A program made the position numbers and the translations under genes. Source: Ligustrum vulgare (lineage: Eukaryota > Streptophyta > Magnoliopsida > Lamiales > Oleaceae). Taken from it: a stretch of DNA of 64,000 nucleotides. Below are positions 1 to 61,443 of the stretch, in pieces (within the stretch, counting starts at the first letter, position 1; every line of letters starts with the position of its first letter). The notes under the pieces were generated by a model. The model was not told where the DNA came from. It worked only from the letters and a program-made list of their open reading frames with translations, and did not search any database. The stretch spans positions 9,486,014-9,550,013 of the forward strand of contig OY743169.1 of assembly GCA_963555705.1 (NCBI GenBank). The letters are read 5' to 3'.

Positions 1-199
1 AGCCCAACACTTTTCATTCATAAGAAAAAAAAAAAAACAAAATCTTTCATTGCTTGTTATTATAAGTAGACTTTTTAATTGCTTCCAATAGCATAATAGT
101 TCTAAAAGAATCATGATTTTGATATTTATTTGTAGTTTTGGACTTGATTAATCAAAGGTAGTAATAAGTAAATTAGTCCTCATGGGGTCGATATTCCGG

Positions 200-620: not shown

Positions 621-841
621 GATCCCGTAAGTTCTTTAAATCTGATTGAATTTGATAAGAGGAAATTACATGTAGCCATATTTTTAAAGATCACAATTCA
701 TTTTTAAGATAATAGATTTAATATTTCAAAAATCAGGTCATACTTACCTATTTAACATTTAATATTATATATAATATAAACATAATTATCTATTATATAT
801 TATATTAAAACAAATATAATATTAAATCAAAAACTTAAAGC

Positions 842-1510
842 TTGATGCTCCCTCATCCCCGCCTTTCCCCCGCCCACCACCCCATCCCACCCACCCACTC
901 CACCCCACTCCACCCACCTACTCTAACCTACACTACCCTACCCTACCCTACCCTACCCAACCCAACCCAAAGCCAAAAATATTTTTTTTTTTTTCGCTCG
1001 ATGTTTTCCTACTCTTCCCCATCCCATCTCATCCCATCCCATCCCACCCAACCCAACCCAACACAACCAAACTCTACACCACCTAATCGCAAAGTGACAA
1101 ATTGATCTCGCCAAAGCCACAGCCCTTTGACCCCACCCCAGCCCACCCCAAAATTATTTAACCCACTCACCACCCCCACCCTACCCTACCCCAAATAAGT
1201 TTTTTTTTTTCTCTCTCGATATTTTCCTACACTTCCCCATCCCACCCACCCCACCCCAACCCAACCCCACTCGACCCTACCTTACCCCACCGATCACAAC
1301 GCGACAAATTCATCTAACTCCAGCCACAGACCATGACCATGACCCACCCCAACCCGCCACCCACCCCAACCAAAAATGATTTTTCTTCTATTTGTTCACA
1401 CTTTGCCGTAACCATCCAATCCCACCCACCCCGACCTCACCCCACCCCACTAAAAAAATGATTTTTCCCACTTTTCCACACCCCACCCCACCCCACCCCA
1501 CCCTACCAAA
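842..1510. repeat. C-rich CCCACC/CCCTA/CCCAA low-complexity tract
   Basis: The plus strand is dominated by short degenerate units such as CCCACC, CCCTA, CCCAA and CATCCC, broken by T-runs. Two similar blocks repeat a TTTTTTT-CTCGATGTTTTCCTAC style junction (about 975-1015 and 1201-1230), so the tract looks duplicated. The complementary strand is G-rich with many runs of 3-4 G. An open 87-codon frame at 842-1105 is only low-complexity and is not called a gene. Confidence 0.8.
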
Positions 1511-1573
1511 AAATGATTAATTATAATTAATTAAGGTTTTTAAAGTACACATTTTCAAAATTAAGAAACTTAA

Positions 1574-2723
1574 ACCCTGTTCTCTTTACTGTTTTGAGTC
1601 CGTTTTGAGTTTTTAATTTTTGGAAATATCGAAAACGCGTTCACTTTGCCCATTTTCAGAAACGCGTTTTCCAAAATACCAAAAAAAAAAAAAAAAAAAA
1701 ACAAAGGAAACTCAAAACGAGTTTATTGCGTTTTGAATATTTTGTATTAAAAAGTCCAAAACGACCAAAACGTGCGTTTTTGATTTTTTTTTTGTATAAA
1801 TGTGACATTCTTCCTTCACCTGAAGTTCTTATATTATTATGCCATTATATATATACCCATGTTAAGATTTATTATTTTTTTTTGTAATTTATTTATTTAT
1901 TATTATTATTATTTTTTTAAATGTGAGACATTTTATTCACGTTAAATTCTTATCTTATTTTGTCATTATATATAGATCCATGTTAAGATTTCTTTTTTTT
2001 GGTAAATTATTATTATTTTTTTGTAAAAGTGAGACACTTCCTTCACTTGAAATTCTTATGTTATTTTGTCATTATATATAGATCATGTTAAGATTTTTTT
2101 TTTGTAAATTATTTATTTATTTTTTATTTTTGTAAAAGTAAGACACTTCATTCACTTGAAGTTCTTATATTATTTTGCCATTATATATATATCCATTTTA
2201 ATTTATTTTTTTTTTTGTGTAAAAGTGAGACACTTCCTTCACTTGAAGTTATTATGTTATTTTGCTATTATATAGATCCATGTTAAGATTTTTTATTTAT
2301 TATTATTATTATTTTATTTTTTTTTGTAAATGTGAGACACTTTTTTCACTTGAAATTCTTATATTATTTTGTCATTATATATAGATCCATGTTAAGATTT
2401 TGTTGGTATGAGGTTAAATTTTTGTTTAGCTGAAACAATATTAATGATGAATTTATTGACATAGAGAACTAACTGATTTATTAACATTAAAATTAATATA
2501 ATTCAACAAATCAATCATTTTTTACATATAAAATATCACAAAATAAATTTATCAAAACATTACAAAGTAAAAGCATTTTTCAGTTTTCTATTTTAAAAAC
2601 AGTTTTCCAAAATCACAAAGAGAACATGTTTTCAGCAATCCCAAAAAAAACAATCAAAATCCAAAATTCAAAATAAAATCCAAAACTCAAAATCAAAAAT
2701 CGAAACACAAAGAGAACGGCCCC
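1574..2723. mobile_element. Non-autonomous inverted-repeat element, family A copy 1
   Basis: The ends are ACCCTGTTCTCTTT on the left and AAAGAGAACGGCCCC on the right, imperfect inverted repeats, flanked on both sides by TTAA (1570-1573 and 2724-2727). The left part holds inverted segments rich in AAACGCG, followed by about five tandem copies of a roughly 100-120 bp unit containing GTGAGACACTTCCTTCACTT and a TATATA/CCATGTTAAGA portion. No coding capacity is seen. A second copy lies at 8021-9048, with the same order of internal parts. The superfamily is uncertain. Confidence 0.75.
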
Positions 2724-2814
2724 TTAATGTTTTATTTCAAAAATTAGGTCATAATTAATTATATATTTTACTATTTATGATCACAAATCACTATTTTTAA
2801 GTTCATAGCTTATT

Positions 2815-3510
2815 ATGGTCACAAGTCACAAATCAGATTAGGTTGTGTGTATTGTGGCTATGATTGTTGTGGCAACGAGTGTGGATTGGTGGTGGCAGTG
2901 TGAGGGATGAAACAATTGTGGTGAAGTGGTGGTGGTGCTTGGGGGTCGGGGCAGAGGCGGTGTTGGTGATTGGCGGCGGCGGCGTTTGCTGCCAGTAGTG
3001 GTGCTGATGGTGTGTGACCAAAATGCGCAATTTGTGACTAGCAAATAGCATATGTGACCTAAAAATTTGATTTGATTGTGACATAATATTTTGATATTTG
3101 TGACCTTAAAATAAGTTGTGACCAATTAATTTGATAGTTTGTGACATTTAATTGAATTAGTGTGACCTAATATTTTGATATTTGTGACCCAAAAAAAAAG
3201 TTGTGACCAATTAATTATTATAATCATAATTTGTGACTTGTAAATTTGTGGTTTGTGACCAAGAAATAGATTGTGACCACATTTGTTACTTGTGACATAA
3301 AAATTGTGACTTGTGACCATAATAAGTTGTGACCTTAAAAGTCATCCAAACAATTTTATAAATTGTGACCTACAAAATTTATGATATGTGACCAAGAAAA
3401 CTAGTGATTTGTGAAAATTGTGACCTAAAAAAATCTTGATTTGTATTCGAGAAAAAATTGTGACCAATGAAATATGTGATTTGTGATCAATTGACTCTAG
3501 ATTTGCGACA
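2815..3510. repeat. Degenerate TTGTGAC repeat tract
   Basis: The motif TTGTGACC or TTTGTGAC recurs more than 20 times at irregular spacing of about 15-40 bp, separated by AT-rich spacers. The segment 2870-3010 is a GTGGTGG-rich stretch. Open frames on the minus strand here (about 60-95 codons) read only repeated His/Thr/Asn codons and look non-coding. Confidence 0.7.
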
Positions 3511-32562: not shown

Positions 32563-32612
32563 GAGCTGAAGATACCTGGAACTGACCACGAAATCCATTT
32601 GTTGAAGAAGAT

Positions 32613-33209
32613 ATGGCATACATGAATCCACCGGAGATAAACACTGGGGATGGAACAACAGAGAAGGAGTATTCAAACAAGGATCCGTTAGATCTGCAAA
32701 ATTCAGATCATCCTGGTATGCTTTTGGTTACCTCAGTTTTAACAGGCAGAAATTATCTTAGTTGGAGTAGATCAATTGTCATAGCATTGGGAGCTAAAAT
32801 GAAATTGGGGTTCATTGATGGAAATTGTGATAAACCTACTGAAAATCAGTCTAAAATCGAGCAATGGATAAGGGTAGACTGTATGGTCAGATCATGGCTA
32901 TTAAATTCAATTGATAAAGACATCGTGGAAGCTTTCATTTATACAAAATCAGCAAAGGATCTGTGGTTGGAATTGAAGGAGAGGTATGGTGAGTGCAATG
33001 GTCCAATGATTTACCAATTGCAAAGGGAGATAAGCAGCATCTCGCAAGGGGTATTGACAATTGAGAAGTACTTTACGAAATTGAAGAAGTTATGGGATGA
33101 ATTGGCATGCTTAATGCCAATACCAATTTGTACCTGCACAGCCTCAAAGGAAGTTTCAGATCTAACAGTTTTCAATCAACTCATGCAGTTTCTAATGGGA
33201 TACTTTTGA
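32613..33209 (+). CDS. Copia gag, N-terminal part
   Basis: A 198-codon frame includes SDHPGMLLVTSVLTGRNYLS, a plant copia gag N-terminus, then WLLNSIDKDI and a KLWDEL region; it would form the capsid of the virus-like particle. The frame stops at 33209, and homologous sequence continues in the +1 frame at once (DHIRNQILVMDP, about 33209-33245), so a frameshift separates the capsid and nucleocapsid parts. The start is the first ATG after the primer-binding site. Confidence 0.9.
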   Translation: MAYMNPPEINTGDGTTEKEYSNKDPLDLQNSDHPGMLLVTSVLTGRNYLSWSRSIVIALGAKMKLGFIDGNCDKPTENQSKIEQWIRVDCMVRSWLLNSIDKDIVEAFIYTKSAKDLWLELKERYGECNGPMIYQLQREISSISQGVLTIEKYFTKLKKLWDELACLMPIPICTCTASKEVSDLTVFNQLMQFLMGYF

Positions 33210-33234
33210 TCACATTAGGAATCAGATTCTGGTA

Positions 33235-33804
33235 ATGGATCCACTTCCTTCAGTGAATAAGGCTTACTCCTTGGTACTGAGAGTTGAAAAACAGAGGGAA
33301 GTACACAACATTTTTCCAGAATCAAATGACCATACAGCTATGTTTGTTAGATCCACAGATTACAGAAAGGATAATGGAGGCAGAGGTAGTTTTGGTAGAG
33401 GATTTATGAAAAATAATGCTGGTAGAGGACAATTTAATTCAGGTAGAGGAAGTGGTCGAAGATATGGTTCTGAGAAAGAAAATGCCAATTGTGATCACTG
33501 TGGCATGAGAGGTCACACAAGAGATGGTTGTTTCAAGTTAATTGGATATCCTGAGTGGTATAGGATACCAAAAGAACAGAGATCAAAGGCTATGGGAGAT
33601 GGACGTTTTTTGGCTAACATGGCTGAGACACCTTTTGATTTTGAAGATGATCAGATCAATAATGCCAGGAAGATGGATATGACAGTTCCCTCAGACTTAA
33701 CCAATCGTGTTACACAAGAAGTCCTTAAAGCATTGAGGGGAAAGAAGCTGGTAGACTCTGAAAACAAGGTGAATTTTGCACAATCAAGGAATATGCAGGT
33801 ATGA
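33235..33804 (+). CDS. Copia gag, nucleocapsid part with zinc knuckle
   Basis: A frame of 189 codons continues the gag homology in the +1 frame. A Gly/Arg-rich stretch (about residues 48-80) precedes a CX2CX4HX4C zinc knuckle (CDHCGMRGHTRDGC) and FKLIGYPEWY, typical of plant copia. It overlaps the pol frame by four bases at GTATGA (33801-33804). Homology passes to the other frame a few codons before the overlap, so this probably reflects a second frameshift rather than a designed stop-start junction. Confidence 0.85.
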   Translation: MDPLPSVNKAYSLVLRVEKQREVHNIFPESNDHTAMFVRSTDYRKDNGGRGSFGRGFMKNNAGRGQFNSGRGSGRRYGSEKENANCDHCGMRGHTRDGCFKLIGYPEWYRIPKEQRSKAMGDGRFLANMAETPFDFEDDQINNARKMDMTVPSDLTNRVTQEVLKALRGKKLVDSENKVNFAQSRNMQV

Positions 33805-36623
33805 GTTCATTACATTCTTCCTTAGCTGGTTTTGATCATTTGAAATCAGGATCTTGGATCATTGATACAGGAGCTAGTAACCACATCTGCACAGACAAAA
33901 ACCTGATGTCAAATTTGACTTTGGCCACACAGCCTATATCTGTTTGCCTACCTGATGGAACTAACAAAATAGTTAATTACACTGGTGATGTCAAAATGAA
34001 TTCTAAACTACTCTTAACTGATTCCCTATATGTCCCCAGCTTCAAGTTTAACCTACTATCAGTACCAAAAATCACACAAAATGCAAATCTAAAACTGACC
34101 TTTTACCCTGATATTTGTTTGTTGCAGGACCTGCAGAGTGAGATGATATTGGAAATTGGAAAGCTTGTAGGAAAGTTATATTTGTTGGATGAGTCTTGTT
34201 TTATATCCAAGGACAGTAACACTAAAGAAAAATTGTCTGTTCAATCTACATTTTCCAATCGCATTAATTCCTGTAATCAGATTGTTGATTCTAATAAAAT
34301 TCCTACTTCTTCTTCTGTTGATCAGTTGCTCAAATGGCATTTTAGACTTGGTCATGCATCTTGTTATACTATGAAATACCTGGAATTTCTCAAACATGTT
34401 CCTGATAAGTCAGATTTGATAAAACAATGTGAAGTTTTCCATAAAGCCAAACAGCAAAGAAATTCATTTCCCACCAGCCTCATTCATACACAAACCACCT
34501 TTGAACTCATACATGCCGACCTTTGGGGACCTTATAGACAGTTTCCCCTTACAGGCACACCTTATATGCTGACCATAGTTGATGATTTCAGCAGATCCAC
34601 ATGGACTTTTCTTCTTGTACATAAAACACAAGTTACAAAAACTCTTGACAACTTCTTTAGAATGGTCCAAACCCAATTCAATAAAAGGGTCAAGTGCATT
34701 AGAACAGATAATGGCACTGAGTTTCTTGGCATTGGTTGTCAAACTCTTTTCCTAACTTTTGGAATCATTCATCACAAGACTTGCGTATATACACCTCAAC
34801 AAAATGGGGTAGTTGAACGGAAACACAAACATTTGCTTCAAATAGCTAGAGCCCTAATGTTCCAAGCAAATTTGCCAAGAAAATTTTGGACCTATTCCTT
34901 ATTAATGGCTACATTCATTATAAACAGATTGCCTACCCAAATTTTGAAATGGCGTACTCCTTTTGAGAAGCTATTTGGACACAAACCTGACTATTCTCTA
35001 GTTAAAACCTTTGGTTGTCTATGTTATATTGCAAATACCAGACCAAATAAAACAAAGTTTGATTCAAGAGCTCACACTTGTATCTTCTTGGGATATAATC
35101 CTGGACAGAAGGGGTTTAAAGTCTTTGATATAAACACAAAACAAATTCATATCTCAAGAGATATAAAATTTTTTGAGTCAACTTTTCCTTTCAGAAAAGA
35201 AGAGGCAAATAACTCTTACCCTTCTCTGCCATTAATTCAGCCTTTTGATGATGATCCAGTCTTACCAGAAGCAGTTATTTCCCCTTCTAGAGTTGCAATA
35301 GATCCTTTACATATCTCACCTCAGATTGAAACACAACAAAGTGATCAAAATTCTGCTGATTCATTTACAGATTCTGTTCCAGTTGTTCAAGTTCCTTTTC
35401 ATGAACCTAAATCATTAACAGATACCGATCCTGCAATTGTGCCTCATCCAAATTCACCAATTCCTACTTCTAGGCATAGCACTAGAATCAGAACACAACC
35501 CTCCTGGTTACAAGACTTCATCACCAGTATTACAGTCACACAAGATTTGCCAATTGCTGAAGCTATTTCACCCTGCAATAAGGTCTCTCCTACTCACAAT
35601 AGATATACTCCACCAACTTTTCCCTTTATTAACTCTCCACAACTTATGCCTTCTTATAGTGCATTTTTAGCAAATGTATCAATTGTTCAAGAACCTGATT
35701 CTTATAATCAAGCAAGCAAAAGCAAGGAATGGAATGAAGCTATGCGGTTGGAACTTGATGCATTGGAAGCCAACCAAACATGGGATTTGACTGCACTTCC
35801 TGTTGGTAAGAAGGCCATAGGCTCAAGGTGGGTATATAAGATCAAATTAAAGGCAGATGACACAATAGATAGATTCAAGGCTAGACTTGTTGCAAAGGGG
35901 TACCATCAATTGCAAGGCGTGGATTACTTCGATAGCTTCTCACCAGTTGCTAAACTTGTGACTGTTAGACTTTTTTTGGCCGTTGTGGCAGGAAAGGGAT
36001 GGCCTTTGCATCAGCTCGACATTAATAATGCGTTTCTACATGGTTTCCTAGATGAGGAAGTGTACATGTTACCCCCAGAGGGATATAATAAGGCTTTACC
36101 AGGACAGGTATGTAAGCTGAAGAGAAGCCTATATGGACTGAAACAAGCCTCGCGTCAGTGGAATACAGAACTGTGTCATAAACTTCAGACTTTTGGTTTT
36201 CAACAATCAGCACATGATCACTGTTTGTTCACTAAACATTCTTCACAATCAACTCTTTTCCTCCTTGTATATGTTGATGATGTACTAGTCACAGGTTCGA
36301 ATGAGGAAGAAATTATTGACACAAAGAAATTCTTGCATCAAGCCTTTACTATAAAGGACTTAGGATATGCAAAATATTTCTTAGGATTGGAGATTGCACG
36401 AAATCCAGATGGCATGTATATAAATCAAAGGAAGTATATAGTTGATCTTATTCATGATGCAGGAATGCTTGGAGCTAAACCAGTACAGGTTCCTATACCT
36501 AAAGGCTCAAAATTTGTTGCTCAAGCAGGGCCATTACTTGATGATCCAGAGAAATATAGGAGGTTGATTGGGCGCCTTCTTTATTTAAATCTAACCAGGC
36601 CTTATATCACTTATGGAGTGTAG
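33801..36623 (+). CDS. Copia pol: protease, integrase, reverse transcriptase
   Basis: The 940-codon frame carries protease DTGAS (D near residue 22), the GAG-pre-integrase region with WHFRLGH (about 178), the integrase core (LIHADLWGP near 239, IVDDFSR, a downstream RTDNGTEF and the YTPQQNGVVERKH segment), WVYKIK and the RT YVDD box near residue 823. In the N-terminal integrase zinc finger the last cysteine of the CX2C pair is Phe (CEVF, about 209-212). A stop at 36621-36623 ends the frame before RNase H, and another in-frame stop follows at 36633-36635. Confidence 0.92.
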   Translation: MSSLHSSLAGFDHLKSGSWIIDTGASNHICTDKNLMSNLTLATQPISVCLPDGTNKIVNYTGDVKMNSKLLLTDSLYVPSFKFNLLSVPKITQNANLKLTFYPDICLLQDLQSEMILEIGKLVGKLYLLDESCFISKDSNTKEKLSVQSTFSNRINSCNQIVDSNKIPTSSSVDQLLKWHFRLGHASCYTMKYLEFLKHVPDKSDLIKQCEVFHKAKQQRNSFPTSLIHTQTTFELIHADLWGPYRQFPLTGTPYMLTIVDDFSRSTWTFLLVHKTQVTKTLDNFFRMVQTQFNKRVKCIRTDNGTEFLGIGCQTLFLTFGIIHHKTCVYTPQQNGVVERKHKHLLQIARALMFQANLPRKFWTYSLLMATFIINRLPTQILKWRTPFEKLFGHKPDYSLVKTFGCLCYIANTRPNKTKFDSRAHTCIFLGYNPGQKGFKVFDINTKQIHISRDIKFFESTFPFRKEEANNSYPSLPLIQPFDDDPVLPEAVISPSRVAIDPLHISPQIETQQSDQNSADSFTDSVPVVQVPFHEPKSLTDTDPAIVPHPNSPIPTSRHSTRIRTQPSWLQDFITSITVTQDLPIAEAISPCNKVSPTHNRYTPPTFPFINSPQLMPSYSAFLANVSIVQEPDSYNQASKSKEWNEAMRLELDALEANQTWDLTALPVGKKAIGSRWVYKIKLKADDTIDRFKARLVAKGYHQLQGVDYFDSFSPVAKLVTVRLFLAVVAGKGWPLHQLDINNAFLHGFLDEEVYMLPPEGYNKALPGQVCKLKRSLYGLKQASRQWNTELCHKLQTFGFQQSAHDHCLFTKHSSQSTLFLLVYVDDVLVTGSNEEEIIDTKKFLHQAFTIKDLGYAKYFLGLEIARNPDGMYINQRKYIVDLIHDAGMLGAKPVQVPIPKGSKFVAQAGPLLDDPEKYRRLIGRLLYLNLTRPYITYGV

Positions 36624-36635
36624 CAATTAAGCTAA

Positions 36636-37234
36636 TTTGTTCATGCTCCATGTCAGAAACACTGGGAATTTGCCTTAAATCTGCTTAAATATCTTAAAGG
36701 GTGTCCCTCTAGAGGACTTTTCTTTCCAGCTCAGAATTCTTTTCACTTGGAAGCCTACTCTGATGCAGATTGGGGTTCATGTCTTGATACACGAAAATCA
36801 CTCACTGGTTATTGTATTTTCATGGGCTCAGCCTTAGTTTCATGGAAAACAAAGAAGCAGACAACCGTATCGCGGTCTTCAGCTGAGGCAGAATACAGAA
36901 GTATGGGTAGTACCGTTTGCGAATTACAGTGGATTAGTTACATCCTCCATGATCTTTACATTCCTATATCTACACCTATTCCATTTTGGTGTGATAATAA
37001 AGCTGCCTTACATATAACAGCTAATCCAGTTTTCCATGAGAAAACCAAACATTTGGACATTGATTGCCATGTCGTGCGGAATCAATTCAAGTCAGGCTTC
37101 ATTCTTCCCAAATTCGTGCCATCAAATTTTCAACTTGCAGATGTCTTTACTAAAGCGCTTGCTGCTCCACAGTTTGTTCGGATTATTTCCAAGTTGGGAT
37201 TAGGTGATCTCCACCAATTCCAACTTGAGGGGGG
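36636..37234 (+). pseudogene. Copia RNase H, cut off from pol by stops
   Basis: In the same frame as pol, after two stop codons, the sequence reads YLKGCPSRG, YSDADWGSC, SRSSAEAEYRSM, KTKHLDIDCH and LADVFTKAL, a complete-looking copia RNase H. An internal ATG at 36747 opens a 187-codon frame that runs into the 3' LTR, but there is no reason to think it is a separate gene. Confidence 0.88.
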
Positions 37235-37248
37235 GGGGGGGGGGGGGA
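37229..37248 (+). promoter_or_regulatory. Polypurine tract, run of 19 G
   Basis: Between CAACTTGA and the 3' LTR lies an unbroken run of 19 guanines then A, at the place where the plus-strand primer for reverse transcription must be. Its length could also be affected by assembly or slippage error. Confidence 0.85.
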
Positions 37249-37540
37249 TGAACGAATCACAGCACCAGCACCCACAGAAAAAGGAACATGAGTGCAGTTT
37301 TACCAAATAAGAAAGTCTACTGGACTGAAATCGCACAATACTTTTAGCACTTTTATTTTTCAGCTTACGTTTTTGTTTGTTCCATTTTATTTCTCTTCTT
37401 GATGAGTTGTCACTCAATGATTGGGTCACTCTTTTCCTTCCTGCATTTAAATACTGGAACATTGTTCACTTTTGCTTGATTTTTTCACTGAATGAATAAA
37501 AATATTTTTCCTTCAATATCTGTAAACTGCATTTTGCTCA
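37249..37540 (+). repeat. 3' LTR of young copia
   Basis: 292 bp matching 32259-32549 except for T/C and A/G changes and one extra T that I could see. It is followed by the GTAGT target duplication. Confidence 0.95.
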
Positions 37541-43689: not shown

Positions 43690-44452
43690 AAGTGAAGAAT
43701 ATTTTAAAGTGATTGAATTCAAGATAATGTTATGAGAACATAATTTTCGCATAGATGCTCTTTCGCATATGCCTCGGTACAACGACGTATCTGAAAGAGG
43801 AAAGATTGTAATTAATGCAATCATTGATGAAGCCACGCAATATCTCCAAAAACTATTTTTGGAACTTTGCATTAAGAATTTTATATTACACTTAGATGTG
43901 TTCCATGATAATCGGTTGATGAAGGTCCATATAAGATATGGATTTAAAAGGTCTAATCTTCCTCGCGTTAAGATTTAAGACCTCAATGCTTATTAGAAGT
44001 ACACCAAATATGGATAAGCAATAGCCTTAGTCCAATATGTATATTGTGGGATATCCAAAAGATAGTTGGATATTATTTCTACATTCCTATCGAGAAAGAA
44101 AGTCTATCTCGAATTTTGTCAATATCTTAGAGAAAATAGTTCATCTAAGAGAGGACAGTGGGAATAAAAGTACAGCGTGAAAGAGTTCATGATTACACAT
44201 ATACTTAACCGATTAAATAAGCTCGAATATGTGTTTGCATTGGATGAGACACAAATCGATGCTTGGGACGTGATCGTTACTTAGGACGTAGTGACGACTG
44301 ATAACGCACTAGCTCCATGTAAAATATTAGGATCATGTACACTCCCTTGAGTTACACATCCCTAATTGCTGATATTGTATTAGTCATCAAGGATAATGAG
44401 CCTATATTTACATAAAAGCTAAGTCAAATATTGACAGAACGAGAGGAGAGGA
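43690..44452 (+). pseudogene. Decayed copia integrase and downstream region
   Basis: The reading NDVSERGKIV near 43780-43815 corresponds to the NGVSER segment after the integrase core, and the stretch near 44030-44090 has a remnant of the CHFVGYP type. There are many stops. It breaks at the gypsy target site and resumes at 53217 with EEAIESEIK. Confidence 0.6.
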
Positions 44453-44784
44453 TGTAGCGACCAAGAATTTTTACGCGATTAATAATTATTTTAATAGAAA
44501 ATCGTGTCGCTACTATTTCACCCATTTTTATTAAGTTAACGCCACGACGTATTCGTATAGCCAAATCAAGAAATAATCGAGATCGTTCGATTTTAAATTA
44601 AATTCCGAATTTCTAAAAATATTTCCATTCTCTTGATTTAAAGTATATTAAGTCCAAGTACTTAATTCAATGTTATCCCAATATTTATTTATACAAAAAT
44701 TATTTTTATTATTGAAATTAAGAAAATATATGCAAGCATGAGAGGTTCCATTATATATAATAATTATGAGAATCTTAATTTAAT

Positions 44785-45211
44785 AAATATGGAAAAGTAT
44801 ATGAATGGTTGATAGACTCCATTATATGTAATCATGAAGAGCATAATATTTGTATAAATATGGAAAAGTATATGAATGAATTATATACTCCATTATATAT
44901 AAACATGAAGAGCATAATATTTGTATAAATATGGAAAAGTATATGAATGATTGATAAGACTCCATTATATGTAATCATTAAGAGCATAATATTTGCATAA
45001 ATATGGAAAAGTATATGAATGATTTATATACTCCATTATATATAATCATGAAGAGCATAATAATTGTATAAATATGGAAAAGTATATGAATGATTGATAG
45101 ACTCCATTATATATAATCATGAAGAGCATATTATTTGTATAAATATGGAAAAGTATATGAATGGTGCTTTACTTTAAGAAAATGATGTGTTAAAATTAAT
45201 AGAATTGAATG
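44785..45211 (+). repeat. 71-bp tandem array in 5' LTR
   Basis: The phrase AAATATGGAAAAGTATATGA starts at 44785, 44856, 44927, 44999, 45070 and 45141, 71-72 bp apart. The same array is in the 3' LTR at about 51522-51948. Confidence 0.92.
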
Positions 45212-45424
45212 ATTATGTTTACAATATGCCAACTTTATACATCTATTTAAACCCATCTCTTTTACACACAACTCTACACATATACACTTATTTCCAATCT
45301 CTTGACAAAATCCACAAGTAAGAGAAATTCAAGGTGGTCAAGAAAGTTTTGGTCCATTTACTACTACACTTCATTTTAATTTTTGGTCCATTTACTACTA
45401 CACTTCATTTTAATCTTTTAAAAG

Positions 45425-45985
45425 GTAAGTATATCTTATGTTTTTATGAAAAGTAAGTATGTTTTTATGAAAGGTAAATACACCTTATGTTTTTATGAAA
45501 AGTAAGTATGTTTTTATGAAAAGTAAGTATGTTTTTATGACAAGTAAGTATATCTTATGTTTTTATGAAAAGTAAGTATGTTTTTATGAAAGGTAAATAC
45601 ACCTTATGTTTTTATGAAAAGTAAGTATGTTTTTATGAAAAATAAGTATGTTTTTATGACAAGTAAGTATATTTTATGTTTTTATGAAAAGTAAGTATGT
45701 TTTTATGAAAGGTAAATACACCTTATGTTTTTATGAAAAGTAAGTATGTTTTTATGACAAGTAAGTATATCTTATGTTTTTATGAAAAGTAAGTATGTTT
45801 TTATGAAAGGTAAATACACCTTATGTTTTTATGAAAAGTAAGTATGTTTTTATGACAAGTAAGTATATCTTATGTTTTTATGAAAAGTAAGTATGTTTTT
45901 ATGAAAGGTAAATACACCTTATGTTTTTATGAAAAGTAAGTATGTTTTTATGACAAGTAAGTATATCTTATGTTTTTATGAAAAT
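45425..45985 (+). repeat. GTAAGTATGTTTTTATGA minisatellite in 5' LTR
   Basis: Units of 21-24 bp alternate in a higher order of about 97 bp: AAGTAAGTATGTTTTTATGA, AGGTAAATACACCTTATG and AAGTAAGTATATCTTATG. Nearly every unit contains GTAAGTAT, which matches the plant 5' splice-site consensus. The copy in the 3' LTR (52164-52700) is one 21-bp unit shorter. Confidence 0.92.
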
Positions 45986-46498
45986 GTTTGGATCATTGCT
46001 ATGAAATCAATCTCACAAGATTGCTATGGGTCCCATATGATATGTTTATGATTATGCTAAGGGGACCGGAGTTTAGTAGCGCTACACATAAGAATTCTTG
46101 CCATTTAAGTTCGGTAAAATTCTTGTGTCTCCCTATGTTTATGAGTATTTCGATCCTATCCTATGTTATGATGAAAATGATCCATATGCTTTCAAAAGAA
46201 AATTTATGCTTGGTATACTTACTGGGATTTTATAAATCTCACTCCACGATATTTACCATTTTCAGATAATTGAAGGTTCGAGGCGGTCAACATGGAAGTG
46301 GCAAAAGTGGTTAAGATTGATGAGATAATTATGTTGAACTTTATGTAAGAAAATTATGTTCTATTTTTATTCACAAATAAAATTATGGGATTCTAATTAT
46401 TCTTTTGAATAATTTTACATTACTATTTAAGTCTCGATAATATGATATGAGTCACTTTTAGTGGCACTCGAATGGAAGAGAATTCGGGTCGTCACAGT

Positions 46499-46511
46499 TG
46501 GTATCAGAGCA
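46499..46511 (+). promoter_or_regulatory. Primer-binding site of gypsy-type element
   Basis: TGGTATCAGAGCA starts three bases after the 5' LTR and complements initiator-Met tRNA. Confidence 0.92.
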
Positions 46512-46734
46512 AAGAGTTTTAAAAACGATTCTGTAGATTTTTGAAATTTTATTTCTTTAAAAAAAAAAAAAAAAAAAATTACTATTCACGTGAACAGTAA
46601 AACGACGTGCTATTCATGATGAACAGTGAACGAAATCACTATTCATTATAAAAAAAAAAATTGAATTTTCACATGTCAAGTATGGTTATGATTTTGAAAA
46701 GCATGATGAAATTTGATGTGCGAATTTCAAGGAC

Positions 46735-47130
46735 AAAATTCATTTTAAGCAAGGGAGTTTATAATGTCCTGAAAATTTTATGGAATATAATTAGTTAGTG
46801 ATATGATGTTTATATTGATGTCTTTGATAAATTTCTAGAAGTTCGGGGACTAAAGGAAAAATAAGATTTGACGATAAATTTTATTTGGGTTAAGTTATTA
46901 ATTATTGATGGGGAGATAATTACTATATCGATATTGGATTTGTTTTGAAGACTGTGATTAATTAGGAATTATGATTCAAGAAAATGTTGATTTGGATACA
47001 ACCACATTAAATTATTGTTGATTAAAGGAAAATAAGATTATATGAAATATTTTAACTCATCACTCTACTATGTCACTCTCCACGTATTGACTCCTCGAAC
47101 CAGGTATGTTATATGCTTTGCAAGTCATTT
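46735..47130 (+). repeat. Second gypsy PPT/LTR-like junction
   Basis: AAGGACAAAATTCATTTTAA followed by GCAAGGGAGTTTATAA and then TGTCCTGAAAATTTTATG looks like the end of the interior and the beginning of an LTR from a different gypsy element (the GGACAAAATT and TGTCC...GGGACTAAAG motifs are common there). It lies only 240 bp inside this element, so the interior is probably chimeric. Confidence 0.5.
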
Positions 47131-47411
47131 ACGATTTTATTAAGACATGTTAAGTATGAAATCTTCATATGTTATGAATCTTTATGTGTTACACATAATA
47201 TACATGTCAAGTATGATATAAATTGATAGAAGACTCAATTTTTTTATTCTTTTCAATGTAGAATCATGAGACAGAGAGGATATTTATATGAATTTTGGTG
47301 CATATTAAGCTTAGTAAGATTGACTCAATTAGAAATTAAGTTGGGTTGTAACTTTTGCCCAAAATATATGGAATAATATATTAAACAAACAAAATTAATA
47401 ATGAATTCGTA

Positions 47412-47600
47412 CAATAATTTATCCCTTTATCACTACCTTTGTGTAAAAACAAGGGAAAAACTGTGGATGGTTATTGTACTTCCTCTTCAAGTTTCAATTT
47501 TCGGTTCAATAATTTATCCCTTTATCACTACCTTTGCTTAAAAGCAAGGAAAAACTGTGGATGATTATTGGTACCACTCTTCAAGTTTCAATTCTGAAAA
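47412..47600. repeat. Tandem duplication of about 95 bp
   Basis: CAATAATTTATCCCTTTATC starts at 47412 and again at about 47507. Both copies run to TCTTCAAGTTTCAATT. The stretch 47600-48520 is AT-rich with nothing recognised. Confidence 0.8.
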
Positions 47601-48529
47601 AAAAAAATTCAGAAAGAAAAGAAAGAAAGAGAACGGGTGTTGAGCATAATGGGAATAATATGACTTAAGAATGATTTTCAAAATAATTGTTGTCCTCAAG
47701 TTTAGAAATGATGAACCTTAAATGGACTTTGCATAATTTATTTTAGACATGGCACTAAGTATGAGAAGTCAACAGAAAGGATTTGATTATATGTTCAGAT
47801 TATCTATCGTTTAGATTAAACGAGAAATAGCAAGCCAGTTATGAAGTTGTGATAAGATGTTAAGATTATAAGTGATATGATTTTATTGAGACTTTTATGA
47901 GAAGCATTATGAAGTTAGAGATTTAAAGATTTGGTTCTTAGTTTTTGGTATTTAAGTAATGGATATTATGTTAAGTAAATGAATTATGCCTCTATGTTGA
48001 AGAGAAATGTATTATGAAGTTTGGCTTTGTGAATAAATTTTGGGAATATGATTTATGGCATATATTTATAAGTATGAGTAATCTTTTGAGCCAATTAAGG
48101 TATTGAGTGAAGTGATATTGAAAAAAAATATGATTTGAAATTGTTATGTTGAGGAATTATGAATTGAATTATGGGATATTTTTGATGATATTGAAGTGTT
48201 GGAATCGTTTTCAATATTTTTAGATCGTTGTGATCAAATGTGGAGTTAGTTATTATTGTGAGTTATGAAGTATGCTTATGGTTTGGATAAGTCCAAATTA
48301 CAAGAGAGATTCTGTTCAGAATTTTTATCATTTGGAATTAAGAGCATGATATGATAAGCATCCACTAAAGGAATTAAGGTTAGACATGCAAGTTCATTTA
48401 CATCACAAACGAGATTTAGTTGATGATAGCAGAGATTTTATTATTTTCTCATAAGGAGAACACACAAGAGTCACACTGGAAAGGAAATACATGAAAGCAT
48501 AAGAGAAAAACATGGAAAGATCCTCAGAA

Positions 48530-48750
48530 TGAGAGATGTGTTTCCGGAGTAGCCGTATCCTACCACCTCTGATCTTTTGAGGATATAAAGAGAAAACCTT
48601 CAAAGAGGTGTGTTTCGAGAGTAAGAATACTCCGTAATCTACCACCTTGAATCTTTGAAGTACACACAAGATTTAAACATTAAGGAAATCCTAGTAAATG
48701 GAGGGGTGTCTCGAGAGTGAGAATACTCCGTACTCTACCCCCACCTATTC
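48530..48750. repeat. Three diverged repeats next to the LOG frame
   Basis: GTGTTTC(G/C)(A/G)GAGTA...CTACCACC-type segments occur at about 48535-48578, 48608-48652 and 48703-48748, just downstream of the LOG frame in its direction of reading. They could be its 3' UTR or part of the host element. Confidence 0.65.
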
Positions 48751-48756
48751 TAAGAT

Positions 48757-49410
48757 TCACAGAGTTAAGTTTACATTAACCGGACTCCATTTTCGCTTGA
48801 TTTCCCTTCCTTGCGACCAATCTATCTTAACCCCTGCTGGATCTTGTATTGAGATATATGACTGCAGCTTATCCAGTAGTTCATCAATAGTAGGAGCAGA
48901 AATAAGAAGCCTTCTGGAAAATGGAGAGATGAATCCCTGTTCCACAGCATAATCAAGAAAGGTTAACAAACCATCAAAGAAATTGTTAACATTCAGAAGC
49001 CCAATAGGCTTAGTATGGAGATCTAGTTGAGCCCACGAGGTAATGTTAAAGATTTCTTCTAAGGTACCAAAACCTCCGGGCAGGGCTATAAAGACATCAG
49101 AACCATATAGCATACAAGTTATGCGTTCATGGATGGATAAGGTTTGAACTTCATGCCCTCGTGTTTTGCCTGCAACATCTACCAAAGGGACAGGTATGAC
49201 ACCGATTACTTTTGATTTCTCTGCAAGAGCAGATTGGGAAACACAACCCATTAGACCACTGCTACCACCCCCATACACAAGAGTGATACCTTTTTCCCCC
49301 AGTTTCTTTCCAAGATCTACGGCCGCTTCTAGATAACTGAAGCCTTTCCCCACTTTTGATCCACAAAATACACAAATAGTTTTGATCTGTCGAAGTTTTG
49401 GTGCTTCCAT
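48757..49410 (-). CDS. LOG-type cytokinin riboside 5'-monophosphate hydrolase
   Basis: An intact intronless 217-codon frame. Enzymes of this family cut the ribose-phosphate from cytokinin nucleotides, giving active free bases in one step in the cytosol. Seen here: CVFCGS (13-18), YGGGSSGLMG (46-55), HER (94-96) and the hallmark PGGFGTLEE (111-119), then WAQLDLHTKPIGLLN (126-140) and SAPTIDELL (171-179). Length is normal for LOG. Odd points: residues after the Arg of HER read ITCM where plant LOGs usually have KAEM, so activity may be changed; plant LOG genes normally have several introns, while this copy has none. It lies antisense between the LTRs of a young gypsy-type element. A TATA-like TTTAAATAGCC sits about 75 bp upstream of the ATG. 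A captured, retrocopied gene is the simplest reading. Confidence 0.93.
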   Translation of the reverse strand: MEAPKLRQIKTICVFCGSKVGKGFSYLEAAVDLGKKLGEKGITLVYGGGSSGLMGCVSQSALAEKSKVIGVIPVPLVDVAGKTRGHEVQTLSIHERITCMLYGSDVFIALPGGFGTLEEIFNITSWAQLDLHTKPIGLLNVNNFFDGLLTFLDYAVEQGFISPFSRRLLISAPTIDELLDKLQSYISIQDPAGVKIDWSQGREIKRKWSPVNVNLTL

Positions 49411-49482
49411 CTTTGATAGTATAGAAGAGAAAACTTACGAAGAAGATGTGATTTTGGGATGCCTGAACTATGAAATATGTTT

Positions 49483-49496
49483 GGCTATTTAAAGCC
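49483..49496 (-). promoter_or_regulatory. TATA-like box upstream of the LOG frame
   Basis: The minus strand reads GGCTTTAAATAGCC, about 73-86 bp before the start codon at 49410, a plausible TATA distance for a short 5' UTR. This is inferred from position only. Confidence 0.4.
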
Positions 49497-49876
49497 GAAA
49501 AAATTTACTGTTTTTGATTGATTATGAAAAAGTAAGATTTACTTTTGACAAAATCGGCCAACTTTTGACTGTTTTACCAAAGATATCACCTTTCGGTGAT
49601 TTATTTCCAGCTTTATCAAAACTCGAGAAAGGAAAATATATTTTATTTCCAAAACGCGTGAAAGAAAACAGCAAAATATTTTAAATGTGTATCAAGAGAT
49701 TTACCTTATATCATTGTTGAACTGCCAGAAGCCTCATTTTGTAAAACAGACTGGCAAACAGGATCTTTTGCTATTATATTTTGGAGACTATAACGATTTT
49801 TGTCCTCGTTAAACTGAGAGTATAAGGAGAGAAGTTCACGTTGCACATAACCACTTGGGTGCATCTCAAGAGTCAA

Positions 49877-50305
49877 TCAAATATCATCCAAAGACTCCTT
49901 ACTCAGTCCACCCTTTATGAATTCTATTTTATCATCCCGATTGTTAGAAGAATATCCTACTGATTTGCAACGAGTATCACAGTTCCAACGAGCACATTTG
50001 TAGCAACCATTCAGCCTTTTTGCTCTTCGTTTCTTTGCGAAGGTGCTTTTGCCTAAACCAGGCATGTGCTTTGGAAATGTCATAGGTAATTCACCAGATA
50101 GTCGAACCTTTGCTTCGATCAACCATCGAACATCTTCTGAAACACCATGAGCCATCAGCAACCTCAATCTTTCGAGTCTTATTCGATAAATTTTCCTCAG
50201 ATCATTCATTGGAAGACTGGAATAATACTTGCGAATGTTTGTAAGAATGATATCCATGTTTTTGATGGATCTAACCTCTTCCCAGCATGAACTATTTAAA
50301 AGCAT
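49877..50305 (-). CDS. Unknown 142-aa Cys-rich protein frame
   Basis: I do not recognise this protein. The frame has a helix-rich N-terminal half (LRKIYRIRLERLRLLMAHGV), then a basic stretch (AKKRRAKRL, about residues 91-99), then CYKCARWNCDTRC with spacing CX2CX4CX3C, which resembles a small zinc-binding knuckle, and an acidic/polar end. It lies 466 bp upstream of the LOG frame on the same strand, antisense to the LTRs. Extra antisense frames are known from some plant Ty3/gypsy lineages, so it may be an element protein rather than a host gene. Coding status is supported by length in AT-rich DNA and ordered composition only. Confidence 0.55.
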   Translation of the reverse strand: MLLNSSCWEEVRSIKNMDIILTNIRKYYSSLPMNDLRKIYRIRLERLRLLMAHGVSEDVRWLIEAKVRLSGELPMTFPKHMPGLGKSTFAKKRRAKRLNGCYKCARWNCDTRCKSVGYSSNNRDDKIEFIKGGLSKESLDDI

Positions 50306-50579
50306 TAAGGATCGGAGGGAATCCGCGTGATATTGATTCCAGCAAGAAAGCGCGGAATAGAATAATGGAAAAGAGGGAACAAGAGTTTATGCGCCGTTTA
50401 CTTTCTTGATAAAAGGAAGATTTGATGATGACGGGATTTGAGATATGGAATATTTTCTTGGATTTTGGGTACTGATATTTTGATATAATAATCAAGGTAT
50501 AGAAATAATACGGGGATACGTGAAAGTGAAATAAGGACTGTATTGAATCAGGATTAATAAGTTTGTGCAAGTGAAAGGA

Positions 50580-51160
50580 ATACCTTACGGGAAATGTTAT
50601 GATATTTGAGTTAAGAATTTTAATTATTTGGGAGATATTTGTTTATTGAATTTTGCAGAAATTTTGGGTTACAAATATTGGAAAGATAAACTGATGATTA
50701 TGTTGATATGTGAATAACATGTTTGGGTATATTACATAGAGAATATTCAGGTAATCGTTTTAATTATTTTGGGATATTTGGTGATAAGAAGAAATGACAA
50801 ATTATTATGGTATGATATGTTAGTAAAGATTTATTGAAATTTTAGAGATATTAATACGAATATTTGAGGTCACATGATACGATGATAAATGACAAGTTAC
50901 ATGAATACTACAAGATATGATGAAATATCACATACGATTGGGAATTTTCATTTTGATTCAGAAGAATTTATGAGTAGACATATGTCTATTATTGATAGAA
51001 AAGTCCATGTCTTAAGAAAACAAATTGATGCATTTAGTCAAAGTCCAGTGGGTTAAATATGGTTGGGTTAAATATGGTAGCGATGATGCTACATAAGAAG
51101 AAGAAGAAGAGATTCTGATTAAGTGTTCAGAAATCATAAGATCAAGTAAGATTAATTTCG
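50580..51160. other. AT-rich interior of gypsy-type element
   Basis: No gag/pol motif was recognised on either strand. Confidence 0.5.
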
Positions 51161-51163
51161 AGG

Positions 51164-51189
51164 ACGAAATTATTTTAAGGGGGTAAGTT
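51164..51189 (+). promoter_or_regulatory. Polypurine tract of gypsy-type element
   Basis: The run TTAAGGGGGTAAG ends just before TGTAGCG of the 3' LTR and is preceded by CGAGGACGAAAT, the common plant gypsy context. Confidence 0.8.
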
Positions 51190-53211
51190 TGTAGCGACCA
51201 AGAATTTTTACGCGATTAATAATTATTTTAATAGAAAATCGTGTCGCTACTATTTCACCCATTTTTATTAAGTTAACGCCACGACGTATTCGTATAGCCA
51301 AATCAAGAAATAATCGAGATCGTTCGATTTTAAATTAAATTCCGAATTTCTAAAAATATTTCCATTCTCTTGATTTAAAGTATATTAAGTCCAAGTACTT
51401 AATTCAATGTTATCCCAATATTTATTTATACAAAAATTATTTTTATTATTGAAATTAAGAAAATATATGCAAGCATGAGAGGTTCCATTATATATAATAA
51501 TTATGAGAATCTTAATTTAATAAATATGGAAAAGTATATGAATGGTTGATAGACTCCATTATATGTAATCATGAAGAGCATAATATTTGTATAAATATGG
51601 AAAAGTATATGAATGAATTATATACTCCATTATATATAAACATGAAGAGCATAATATTTGTATAAATATGGAAAAGTATATGAATGATTGATAAGACTCC
51701 ATTATATGTAATCATTAAGAGCATAATATTTGTATAAATATGGAAAAGTATATGAATGATTTATATACTCCATTATATATAATCATGAAGAGCATAATAA
51801 TTGTATAAATATGGAAAAGTATATGAATGATTGATAGACTCCATTATATATAATCATGAAGAGCATATTATTTGTATAAATATGGAAAAGTATATGAATG
51901 GTGCTTTACTTTAAGAAAATGATGTGTTAAAATTAATAGAATTGAATGATTATGTTTACAATATGCCAACTTTATACATCTATTTAAACCCATCTCTTTT
52001 ACACACAACTCTACACATATACACTTATTTCCAATCTCTTGACAAAATCCACAAGTAAGAGAAATTCAAGGTGGTCAAGAAAGTTTTGGTCCATTTACTA
52101 CTACACTTCATTTTAATTTTTGGTCCATTTACTACTACACTTCATTTTAATCTTTTAAAAGGTAAGTATATCTTATGTTTTTATGAAAAGTAAGTATGTT
52201 TTTATGAAAGGTAAATACACCTTATGTTTTTATGAAAAGTAAGTATGTTTTTATGAAAAGTAAGTATGTTTTTATGACAAGTAAGTATATCTTATGTTTT
52301 TATGAAAAGTAAGTATGTTTTTATGAAAGGTAAATACACCTTATGTTTTTATGAAAAGTAAGTATGTTTTTATGACAAGTAAGTATATTTTATGTTTTTA
52401 TGAAAAGTAAGTATGTTTTTATGAAAGGTAAATACACCTTATGTTTTTATGAAAAGTAAGTATGTTTTTATGACAAGTAAGTATATCTTATGTTTTTATG
52501 AAAAGTAAGTATGTTTTTATGAAAGGTAAATACACCTTATGTTTTTATGAAAAGTAAGTATGTTTTTATGACAAGTAAGTATATCTTATGTTTTTATGAA
52601 AAGTAAGTATGTTTTTATGAAAGGTAAATACACCTTATGTTTTTATGAAAAGTAAGTATGTTTTTATGACAAGTAAGTATATCTTATGTTTTTATGAAAA
52701 TGTTTGGATCATTGCTATGAAATCAATCTCACAAGATTGCTATGGGTCCCATATGATATGTTTATGATTATGCTAAGGGGACCGGAGTTTAGTAGCGCTA
52801 CACATAAGAATTCTTGCCATCTAAGTTCGGTAAAATTCTTGTGTCTCTCTATGTTTATGAGGATTTCGATCCTATCCTATGTTATGATGAAAATGATCCA
52901 TATGTTTTCAAAAGAAAATTTTGCTTGGTATACTTACTGGGATTTTATAAATCTCACTCCACGATATTTACCATTTTCAGATAATTGAAGGTTCGAGGCG
53001 GTCAACATGGAAGTGGCAAAAGTGGTTAAGATTGATGAGATAATTATGTTGAACTTTATGTAAGAAAATTATGTTCTATTTTTATTCACAAATAAAATTA
53101 TGGGATTCTAATTATTCTTTTGAATAATTTTACATTACTATTTAAGTCTCGATAATATGATATGAGTCACTTTTAGTGGCACTCGAATGGTCGAGAATTC
53201 GGGTCGTCACA
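51190..53211 (+). repeat. 3' LTR of gypsy-type element
   Basis: 2022 bp, nearly identical to 44453-46496, including the 71-bp array (about 51522-51948) and the GTAAGTAT minisatellite (about 52164-52700). Confidence 0.95.
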
Positions 53212-53216
53212 GAGGA

Positions 53217-57450: not shown

Positions 57451-58674
57451 GTGAATTTATAATAGAAGTTTTAGGCCCATCCTACTCGATGTTTGTCTTA
57501 CCAACTCTTTGGTAAGTGGTTTTGTAAATGGATCAGCCAAATTTTCACTTGACCTCACATAGGTAAGTGATATTATTTCATTCTTTATTAATTTTCTTAT
57601 GTAATCATGTCTAAGACTCATATGTCTAGACTTTCCATTTTAGACTTCGTTATAAGCCCTTGCTAGAGTAGCTTGACTATCGCATAGTATAGATATTGAA
57701 GACTCATTCTTTGTATCTAGTGGAACTTCATAAAGAAGATCCTTAAGCCACTCTACTTCCTTTCCGGTTTCGGCTAGTGCAACAAACTCGGATTCCATGG
57801 TGGAATGTGTAATCATTGTTTGTTTATTTGATCTCCAAGAAATAGCACCACCTCCAAATGTACACAACCATCCCGAGGTTGATTTATTTTCTATAGCATT
57901 TGATATCCAACTCGCATCGGTATATCCTTCTAGTATTGCTGGAAACTTGGAATATTTAAGTCCAAGGTTTTTAGTTCTCTTTAGATAACCAAGAACTCTT
58001 CCAATTGCTTTCCAATGCTCAACACTTGGATTGCTAGTAAACCTACTAAGTTTACTTATGGCAAATGCAATGTCCAGTCTTGTGCATTGAACAACATACA
58101 TTAAACTCCCAATTGCACTCGCATATTCGAGTTGTCCAATAGCCCTATCAATATTCTTTACAAGTTTAATACTTGAATCAAATGGAGTATTTGCCTCTTT
58201 AATGTTCAAATGTTTGAACTTTTCAATTACGTTCTCTATATAATGTGATTGGGTTAATGCATACCCCAACTCATTCTTGATCACTTTTATACCCAATATG
58301 ATATCCACACGACCAAGATCTTTCATTTTGAATGTTGATGATAGAAACCTCTTCATTTCTTTTATTCCATCCATGTGATTACTTATAATCAACATGTCAT
58401 CCGCATATAAGCACACAAATATTACATGTTTATCAAAACTTTTGATATATAAACATTTATCTACCACATTGTGTGAAAAACTAAAAGACATAATTGCATT
58501 ATCAAATTTCTCATGCCATTTTTTAGGAGCTTGTTTTAAACTATATAGTGATTTGACAAGTTTACAAACTTTATTTTCGTTTCTCGGAAGAATAAAGCCT
58601 TTCGGTTGCTCCAAATAAACTTTTTCGTTTAATTCTCCATTTAAAAATGCAGTCTTAACATCCATTTGATGCAC
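57450..58674 (-). pseudogene. Copia RT and RNase H
   Basis: A 344-codon open frame (57640-58674) carries MDVKTAFLNGEL, SLYSLKQAPKKWHEKFD, the YADDML active-site box, EYASAIGSLMYVVQCTRLDI, YTDASWIS and STMESEFVAL. It stops at 57640 within RNase H, and homology continues to about 57450 (SENLADPLTK). The frame lacks its upstream part, which is frameshifted at 58675-58850. This is the best-preserved part of the element. Confidence 0.92.
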
Positions 58675-59058
58675 ATGTAAGTCATATATAGAGATAATGC
58701 AAATAGAATTCTAATAGTAGTAATTCTAGTTACGGGTGCATAAGTGTCAAAATAATCAATTTCTTCCTTTTGTCGAAAACCTTTAGCAATTAATCTTACT
58801 TTATAAGTTTGGATTAAACCATCTATATTGTATTTCGTTCAAAATACCCACTTGCAACCAATGACTTTTGATCGAACCGGTAAATCAACAATCTTCCAAG
58901 TATTATTGGACATTATAGAATCCATTTCATTATTGTTGAGCATTATAGAATCCATTTCATCATTTATAGCATCCTTTCAAAATGTGCTATCTCTAGAGTC
59001 ATTGCTTCTTTATAGGTTTTAGGATCACTATCAATTTGAAGAACATATGGAATTGTTC

Positions 59059-60972: not shown

Positions 60973-61428
60973 TCACTTCCAATTCATGTACTTGGGGTAA
61001 TAGGGAATATTTTCCAAAAATTTAAAATCAAAGTACCTTGTTATAAGGAATTTTGTAGTGCCTTCCTCTTCGGCATTGTACTTATTTTCAAGTGCATTCC
61101 AAATCACTTTTGCAGATTTTGTGTTGGTGTACAAGTCGTAGAGACGATCCGATAGTGCATTCAATATATGACCACGGCAAATGAGTTCATCTTCTTCACG
61201 CTTCTTTCGATCAATCCTTGCTTGTTCCGTATCTTTGTCGGAAGGTTCAAGAAAATCCTCCAAATTTGGGTCAAGAATGTAGAAGATTTTCAGCGCCGTT
61301 AGTAGAAACTTGATTTTTTCTTGCCAGCTTGTGAAGTTGGTACCATCAAAGCGATCCAAGCGAACCAAGTCTTGATTCATCAACTTGATTGTAGCCATGG
61401 TTGTGTCTCCTTCAGTTGCCATATCCAA
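60973..61428 (-). CDS. Copia gag, N-terminal part (broken element)
   Basis: A 151-codon frame contains LVRLDRFDGTNFTSWQEKIK, a plant copia gag N-terminus, and DRLYDLYTNTKSAKVIWNAL. The start codon is only 15 bases from the LTR end, so there is hardly room for a leader. A later in-frame ATG (near 61398) is equally possible. The frame stops at 60973 while homology continues. Confidence 0.8.
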   Translation of the reverse strand: MDMATEGDTTMATIKLMNQDLVRLDRFDGTNFTSWQEKIKFLLTALKIFYILDPNLEDFLEPSDKDTEQARIDRKKREEDELICRGHILNALSDRLYDLYTNTKSAKVIWNALENKYNAEEEGTTKFLITRYFDFKFLENIPYYPKYMNWK

Positions 61429-61443
61429 ATTTCGCTTTTAGAT

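Follow-up and report, generated by a model that had tools for sequence, protein, structure and literature searches.

The locus studied here raises the question of how an uninterrupted frame of 217 codons, resembling the LOG-type enzymes that activate cytokinins, comes to lie between two long terminal repeats (LTRs) in Ligustrum vulgare: (i) whether it is a gene of the retrotransposon and spreads with it; (ii) whether its protein is maintained by selection; and (iii) whether that protein is in fact hormone-activating, as the original prediction proposed. Within the window, by which we mean the whole stretch of 64,000 nucleotides analysed, a complete LTR element occupies positions 44453-53211 on the plus strand, with the following features (position, strand, feature, basis):

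44448-44452, no strand, target-site duplication GAGGA, left copy (perfect match to the right copy)
44453-46496, plus, 5' LTR (TGTAG...TCACA) with internal tandem arrays (self-BLAST, motif scan)
46499-46510, plus, primer binding site TGGTATCAGAGC, directly after the 5' LTR (sequence)
46511-48430, plus, interior without a recognised gene (frame listing and Pfam scan)
48437-48442, minus, putative AATAAA-type poly(A) signal of LOG (sequence)
48532-48742, minus, imperfect repeat of about 42 nt, present three times in the 3' untranslated region of LOG (sequence)
48757-49410, minus, LOG-like phosphoribohydrolase gene, 217 codons and stop, with Arg96, Glu119 and the C-terminus VNVNLTL (frame, PF03641, residue alignment)
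49486-49493, minus, TATA-like box TTTAAATA, located about 76 nt before the start codon of LOG (same in 21 of 21 copies compared)
49709-49876, minus, NABP frame past the stop, still open (read in frame with the rest of the protein in most of the other copies fetched)
49877-50257, minus, carlavirus-NABP-like zinc-finger gene, 126 codons and then an in-frame stop (Pfam, frame)
50293-50300, minus, TATA-like box TTTAAATA preceding the start codon of NABP, putative promoter (sequence)
51177-51183, plus, purine run AAGGGGG before the 3' LTR, putative polypurine tract (sequence)
51190-53211, plus, 3' LTR (self-BLAST, motif scan)
53212-53216, no strand, target-site duplication GAGGA, right copy (perfect match to the left copy)

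The two LTRs are 2044 bp (5') and 2022 bp (3') long and differ at 7 of 2023 aligned sites; self-BLAST gives one extra common base at each end, and the ends were set by the motif scan. Together with the short target duplication and the primer site, these repeats place the element among the LTR retrotransposons. The primer site TGGTATCAGAGC, which we take to be of the tRNA-Met type, recurs, with no more than a single mismatch, in 17 of the 20 copies fetched from the genome; of the three without it, two are missing their 5' end. Because this site follows the 5' LTR, the element reads on the plus strand and the LOG frame is antisense to it, consistent with the original description of an antisense frame between near-identical LTRs with a GAGGA duplication. 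Judged by its ends, we assume the element to be of the Ty3/gypsy type, the ends giving us the impression of a Tekay-type element.

The interior holds 35 frames of at least 45 codons, among which LOG and NABP are the sole long ones; no long gag or pol frame was found there, and the window copy is therefore non-autonomous. A Pfam scan of 10 of these 35 frames, outside both genes, returned no domain, an Rfam scan of the element gave a single match far under the cut-off, and a bacterial promoter scan, a method that does not apply to plants, gave matches at chance level only. Two arrays lie within the LTRs, a 71-bp tandem array and one whose spacing is 49/28/21 bp (44676-45234 and 45311-46100, and also in the 3' LTR), and LTR lengths differ among copies. 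Elsewhere in the window, Ty1/copia sequences lie at 32586-37310 (plus) and at 57640-58710 and 60973-61437 (minus); their gag, integrase and RVT_2 domains are in broken frames.

A search of the window's own genome (1.385 Gb, 51 contigs) with the LOG protein gave 9405 first-look candidates; the best 150, ranked by LOG similarity, were scored and provide a lower bound. All of these 150 cover residues 1-217 at 99–100% identity, and 147 have no internal stop, while 3 have one. A second search used a 400-bp non-coding probe adjoining the primer site (1174 candidates, 40 scored). From these searches, we fetched 20 elements by LOG rank, two of them partial, and, for 10 of the 40 scored with the probe, the LOG-NABP stretch. 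LOG and NABP occur together in all 20 LOG-ranked copies and in 9 of the 10 probe-picked ones; at the tenth locus (L032), no part of the element was found within its 2.1 kb.

Perfect 5-bp duplications flank 11 of the 20 fetched elements as well as the window element, and all twelve are different, as befits multiple independent insertions. The gene is thus mobile, as had been proposed, and the idea that it is a host gene native to this locus is disfavoured, since eleven other elements carry different target duplications. In the remaining nine fetched elements, either one end was not located within the stretch or the flanks are mismatched (L018), a pattern to be expected if an adjacent copy uses the same LTR. 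In nine cases, two LOG copies are approximately 6.5–7.1 kb apart (for example, C2:75232644 and C2:75239375), a spacing as in tandem elements with a common LTR. L018 shows the order interior-LTR-primer site, and L013 and L016 have interior sequence of another copy on either side and therefore seem to have landed in older members of their own family. LTR divergence is 0–0.0035 in 11 of the 12 elements with duplications and 0.016 in one, corresponding, at the substitution rates that we assume, to ages of 0–0.25 million years and about 0.6–1.2 million years, respectively. The element family is very young and highly amplified.

Given such young insertions, the intactness of any single copy says little. 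The LOG frame has a pN/pS of 0.21 among the probe-picked copies and the window (n=9 in-frame of 10; L034 is frameshifted) and of 0.13 among the LOG-ranked copies and the window (n=19, two with a stop; the partial copies L023 and L026 were excluded). Over 29 copies, a count from which L034 and L032 were excluded, 18 of 33 LOG variants are synonymous, compared with a fraction of 0.265–0.29 expected without selection (binomial P 0.0006–0.002); no difference in this respect was seen between shared LOG variants and single ones (Fisher P 1.0). Among the results that would speak against it, the original prediction had named absence of the frame from other copies and a ratio near 1 with stops in other copies; the frame is present in other copies, and neither these ratios nor the stops in only 3 of the 150 scored copies bear out the second. 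Mean pairwise distances in the probe-picked set are 0.008 for LOG, 0.012 for the 3' untranslated region (n=8), 0.027 for the promoter region and 0.040 for NABP. Against the case for selection, the 3' untranslated region is almost as uniform as LOG in these copies. When 18 LOG-ranked elements were compared with the window's copy, intervals within LOG were 0.98–0.999 identical and the stretch 47700-48400 was 0.82–0.93 identical, but other non-coding sequence is also very alike (50300-51200, 0.97–0.99; parts of 46500-47600, partly covered, 0.95–1.0). We conclude that the LOG frame is held under purifying selection within this young family.

Outside the frame, the LOG leader is nearly identical across the same 21 of 21 copies in which the TATA-like box is the same. 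Of the three repeats of the LOG 3' untranslated region, one folds better than shuffled sequences (z -2.82), one weakly better (z -1.77) and one not better (z -0.86), and the region as a whole folds no better than shuffles (z -0.79).

The LOG frame itself reads through without interruption and contains both PGGFGTLEE and GGGSSGLMG, the hallmark motifs for which it was first noticed. It matches PF03641 with an E-value of 2.3e-32 and Arabidopsis At2g37210 (2a33) with one of 1.8e-57. Its sequence match to solved LOGs and its predicted strand-helix order indicate a LOG-type fold, and an AlphaFold2 model has the LOG-like order of strands and helices (mean pLDDT 83.5) with an unstructured tail at residues 201-217 (pLDDT <50). 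The catalytic residues Arg96 and Glu119 and the PGGxGTxxE motif are present.

A database search with the LOG protein retrieved 3064 proteins, of which the best 120 were listed and, with the window, make up the 121 sequences compared; named entries among these best 120 of 3064 include 11 clusters from Reevesia pubescens, 6 entries from Populus and 5 from Orobanche. A set of 120 listed LOG3-type plant enzymes served for comparison. Within the window and the best 120 listed relatives, the catalytic Arg is retained in 113 of 121 and the catalytic Glu in 120 of 121, and Arg96, Thr116, Glu118 and Glu119 are all retained jointly in 111. The pocket around the base is different. In CgLOG, Lys100 lies in the adenine site and Glu125 in the prenyl pocket (PMC4979012), the latter having been inferred by those authors from superposition, not from a bound cytokinin. 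In the same 121 sequences, the equivalent of Lys100 is Leu, Ile or Met in 118 and Lys in 1, and the equivalent of Glu125 is never Glu. Conversely, both residues are retained in all 120 listed LOG3-type enzymes, and likewise in the aligned LOG8 and bacterial LOGs; because the chosen query confined the comparison to LOG3-like enzymes, the changed pocket could also occur in other classes of plant LOG. At the proposed Met/His/Lys/Glu/Trp pocket, the window protein has Ile93, His94, Ile97, Asn122 and Trp126, and thus departs from it.

These data refine two earlier claims. The replacement of KAEM by ITCM after the conserved Arg, which had been taken as a sign of altered chemistry, is correctly described, and its first change, Lys to Ile, strikes a base-pocket residue; a changed substrate is therefore supported and is a better description than altered chemistry. 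Similarly, the designation as a hormone-activating enzyme agrees with the retained catalytic Arg and Glu but becomes doubtful because the pocket Lys and Glu are replaced in nearly all listed relatives.

The relatives also share an unusual end, on which the original prediction is silent. A terminal LxLxL motif is exact in 95 of the 121 sequences (the window and the best 120) and relaxed in three more, including the window, whose tail VNVNLTL matches in the relaxed form only; 23 of the 121 are without it, several of them having one letter changed or the end cut. The motif terminates none of the 120 listed LOG3-type enzymes, and inside the relatives it occurs 3 times in 24199 positions. LxLxL, the EAR motif, recruits TOPLESS. 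In a maximum-likelihood tree of 46 of the 121 sequences, the window protein among them, 24 of the 120 LOG3-type enzymes and three solved LOGs, the relatives and the LOG1/3-type plant enzymes fall on opposite sides of one branch with support of 100/96, in an analysis whose bootstrap was not fully settled and in which long branches were flagged. Judged from their sequences, the LOG relatives from several eudicots are one clade that shares the pocket changes and the tail.

Just upstream of LOG, and also antisense, lies a second gene that the original prediction did not mention. Its product scores 33.3 bits against PF05515 (Viral_NABP; cut-off 23) and 23.2 bits against PF01623 (Carla_C4; cut-off 20.9), and PF05515 was found in 23 of 24 aligned NABP members. 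The window frame is broken at codon 127; among the 20 LOG-ranked copies, L009 breaks at codon 173, L013 at 114 (frameshift) and L025 at 25, while the others are open to about codon 182. With a pN/pS of 0.72 (n=7) and 0.88 (n=16), NABP is nearly unconstrained in the window's genome, yet it is conserved between plants. The 126-residue query retrieved 345 relatives, 182 residues long in 42 of the best 120 listed, and NABP relatives in general are abundant in plant genomes and contigs. One relative, P0195, ends in NLSLSL, a tail of the kind seen in the LOG relatives. A PDB search with the NABP profile gave one weak match (E 0.6), and viral contigs scanned with the queries P0001, A1 and A2 contained no relative.

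A scan of prokaryote contigs with query A2 identified DAIEQH010000041.1 (L041), in which an integrase (rve, Integrase_H2C2) is followed by a full NABP frame in the same direction, with a Carla_C4 score just under the cut-off. This contig is labelled Candidatus Nomurabacteria and sits in a bacterial bin; by content it is a plant retrotransposon contig, and the label is probably due to binning contamination. We presume its element to be Athila-like, and no LOG was found in its 3.3 kb (1-3330). A second gypsy-type element thus has NABP as well, placed after pol and in sense, and NABP looks like a long-standing retrotransposon gene. An endogenous RNA virus had been our first idea for its source and was dropped on this arrangement: residing in LTR elements here and linked to an integrase in L041, NABP does not have the setting of a carlavirus genome. 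Two contig sizes (8723 and 4511) are common to the hand-transcribed LOG and NABP match lists, as happens by chance in less than 1% of jittered lists, which hints at LOG-NABP linkage in other plants too.

Taken together, we regard as probable that the locus is a young, amplified, non-autonomous LTR element whose antisense cargo consists of NABP and a LOG-like nucleotide N-glycosidase with a re-specified substrate. LOG and NABP would each be expressed from an antisense promoter of their own, and the element would be mobilised in trans by an autonomous relative. With its phosphate site and the catalytic residues Arg and Glu retained, the LOG protein is predicted to be a working phosphoribohydrolase; as its base pocket is unlike that of the cytokinin-activating LOGs, the substrate is probably a different nucleotide. 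The disordered LxLxL-type tail may bind a TOPLESS-type corepressor. Carlavirus relatives reportedly act as silencing suppressors, and one is reported to be a transcription factor that causes hyperplasia (PMC12172455); by analogy, NABP probably acts as a silencing suppressor or nuclear regulator, and the two proteins may jointly help the expression and inheritance of the element. This suggests that the element keeps a virus-like toolkit of its own. A more specific version, which we offer tentatively, is a counter-defence cassette in which NABP would suppress silencing and the repurposed LOG, docked to TOPLESS by LxLxL, would act on a non-cytokinin nucleotide signal; LOG may then destroy or make such a signal, for example an immune nucleotide.

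If the element instead spread a true cytokinin-activating enzyme, cleaving cytokinin monophosphates, increasing free cytokinin in the meristem and thereby favouring division of the meristem cells in which it transposes, the family assignment, the LOG-like predicted fold and the four catalytic and phosphate-loop residues kept jointly in most relatives would all be expected. The replacement of the Lys100 and Glu125 equivalents, both invariant in the comparison enzymes, is difficult to reconcile with this, particularly as Lys100 belongs to the adenine site and alanine at AMP-binding or catalytic residues, S19A excepted, nearly abolished CgLOG activity (PMC4979012); we consider this explanation unlikely. 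Plant LTR elements have been described as capturing host genes (PMC7264820), and a host LOG captured once and carried without use to the element would look intact in insertions as young as these. The low pN/pS and the excess of synonymous variants, the core promoter kept in all copies compared, the open frame in nearly all scored copies and a single LOG clade with the same pocket changes and tail in several eudicots argue against such a passenger, which seems to us improbable.

The remaining alternatives have still less to recommend them. The NABP scores above both viral cut-offs could reflect a fragment of a carlavirus-like RNA virus, trapped together with a host gene between LTRs by template switching, but the 10 interior frames scanned contain no other viral domain and relatives of NABP are plentiful in plants (345, the best 120 listed), so that we hold this origin to be very improbable. 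Finally, both frames might serve mainly as antisense regulatory transcripts of the element and not as proteins; antisense transcription is described for Grande, from its own promoter, and weakly for Retand, and a regulatory role has been discussed (PMC7264820). Codon-level constraint on LOG and its conserved active site speak against this, and of all the explanations we give it the least credence.

A LOG-family domain inside eudicot Ty3/gypsy elements is not in itself new. The YgdH/LOG domain has been reported in gypsy consensus sequences of Citrus sinensis, C. clementina and Populus trichocarpa (PMC9289625, citing Steinbauerova 2011), and the suggestion that the present element represents a new kind of gene-carrying retrotransposon accordingly does not hold. 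The relevant section of that paper names the domain only, without orientation, NABP, pocket or tail; the window element differs in that it is non-autonomous and carries LOG in antisense together with NABP. Passages of PMC6317226 add nothing on LOG, and titles and abstract openings, covering few subscription papers, gave no NABP in a retrotransposon and no account of the pocket or tail of these LOGs. Within these sources, what is new here is the pairing of a virus-like gene with LOG, the altered pocket and the terminal motif.

Grande, RIRE2 and Retand similarly carry antisense accessory genes toward the 3' LTR, with an own promoter reported for Grande (PMC7264820; PMC11963269); the proteins there are TRP28 and Smc-like, and the window element, in contrast, is without pol. 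The orchid Gypsy elements with an RNA demethylase (2-ODD) have likewise kept an acquired enzyme through many copies, although that enzyme is a different one and was tested biochemically, whereas the window LOG is read from sequence (PMC9289625). Sunflower Tekay elements bear other accessory frames (PMC11728184). With plant LOG3 and LOG8, the element LOGs share the family, the PGGxGTxxE motif and the catalytic Arg and Glu, but they form a separate clade with the pocket Lys and Glu replaced, the LxLxL end (95 of 121) and an intronless frame. The NABPs have the basic stretch, the CxxC zinc finger and the Viral_NABP and Carla_C4 matches of the carlavirus cysteine-rich, nucleic-acid-binding proteins (PMC12172455), and differ from these in being most often 182 residues long, with a long C-terminal part, and retrotransposon-borne (here and in L041).

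For most accessory genes in plant retrotransposons, no function is known. LOG, in contrast, belongs to an enzyme family of known chemistry, has been maintained by selection during a very recent burst and shows a specific, testable change in the substrate pocket; its partner NABP belongs to a family known for silencing suppression in viruses. If the pair works as proposed, some plant retrotransposons would deal with the signalling and silencing of their host in the manner of viruses. For annotation, caution is due with LOGs of this clade listed as 'LOGL10' or 'hypothetical', for instance in Populus, Reevesia and Orobanche, since these may belong to transposons and not be host cytokinin enzymes.
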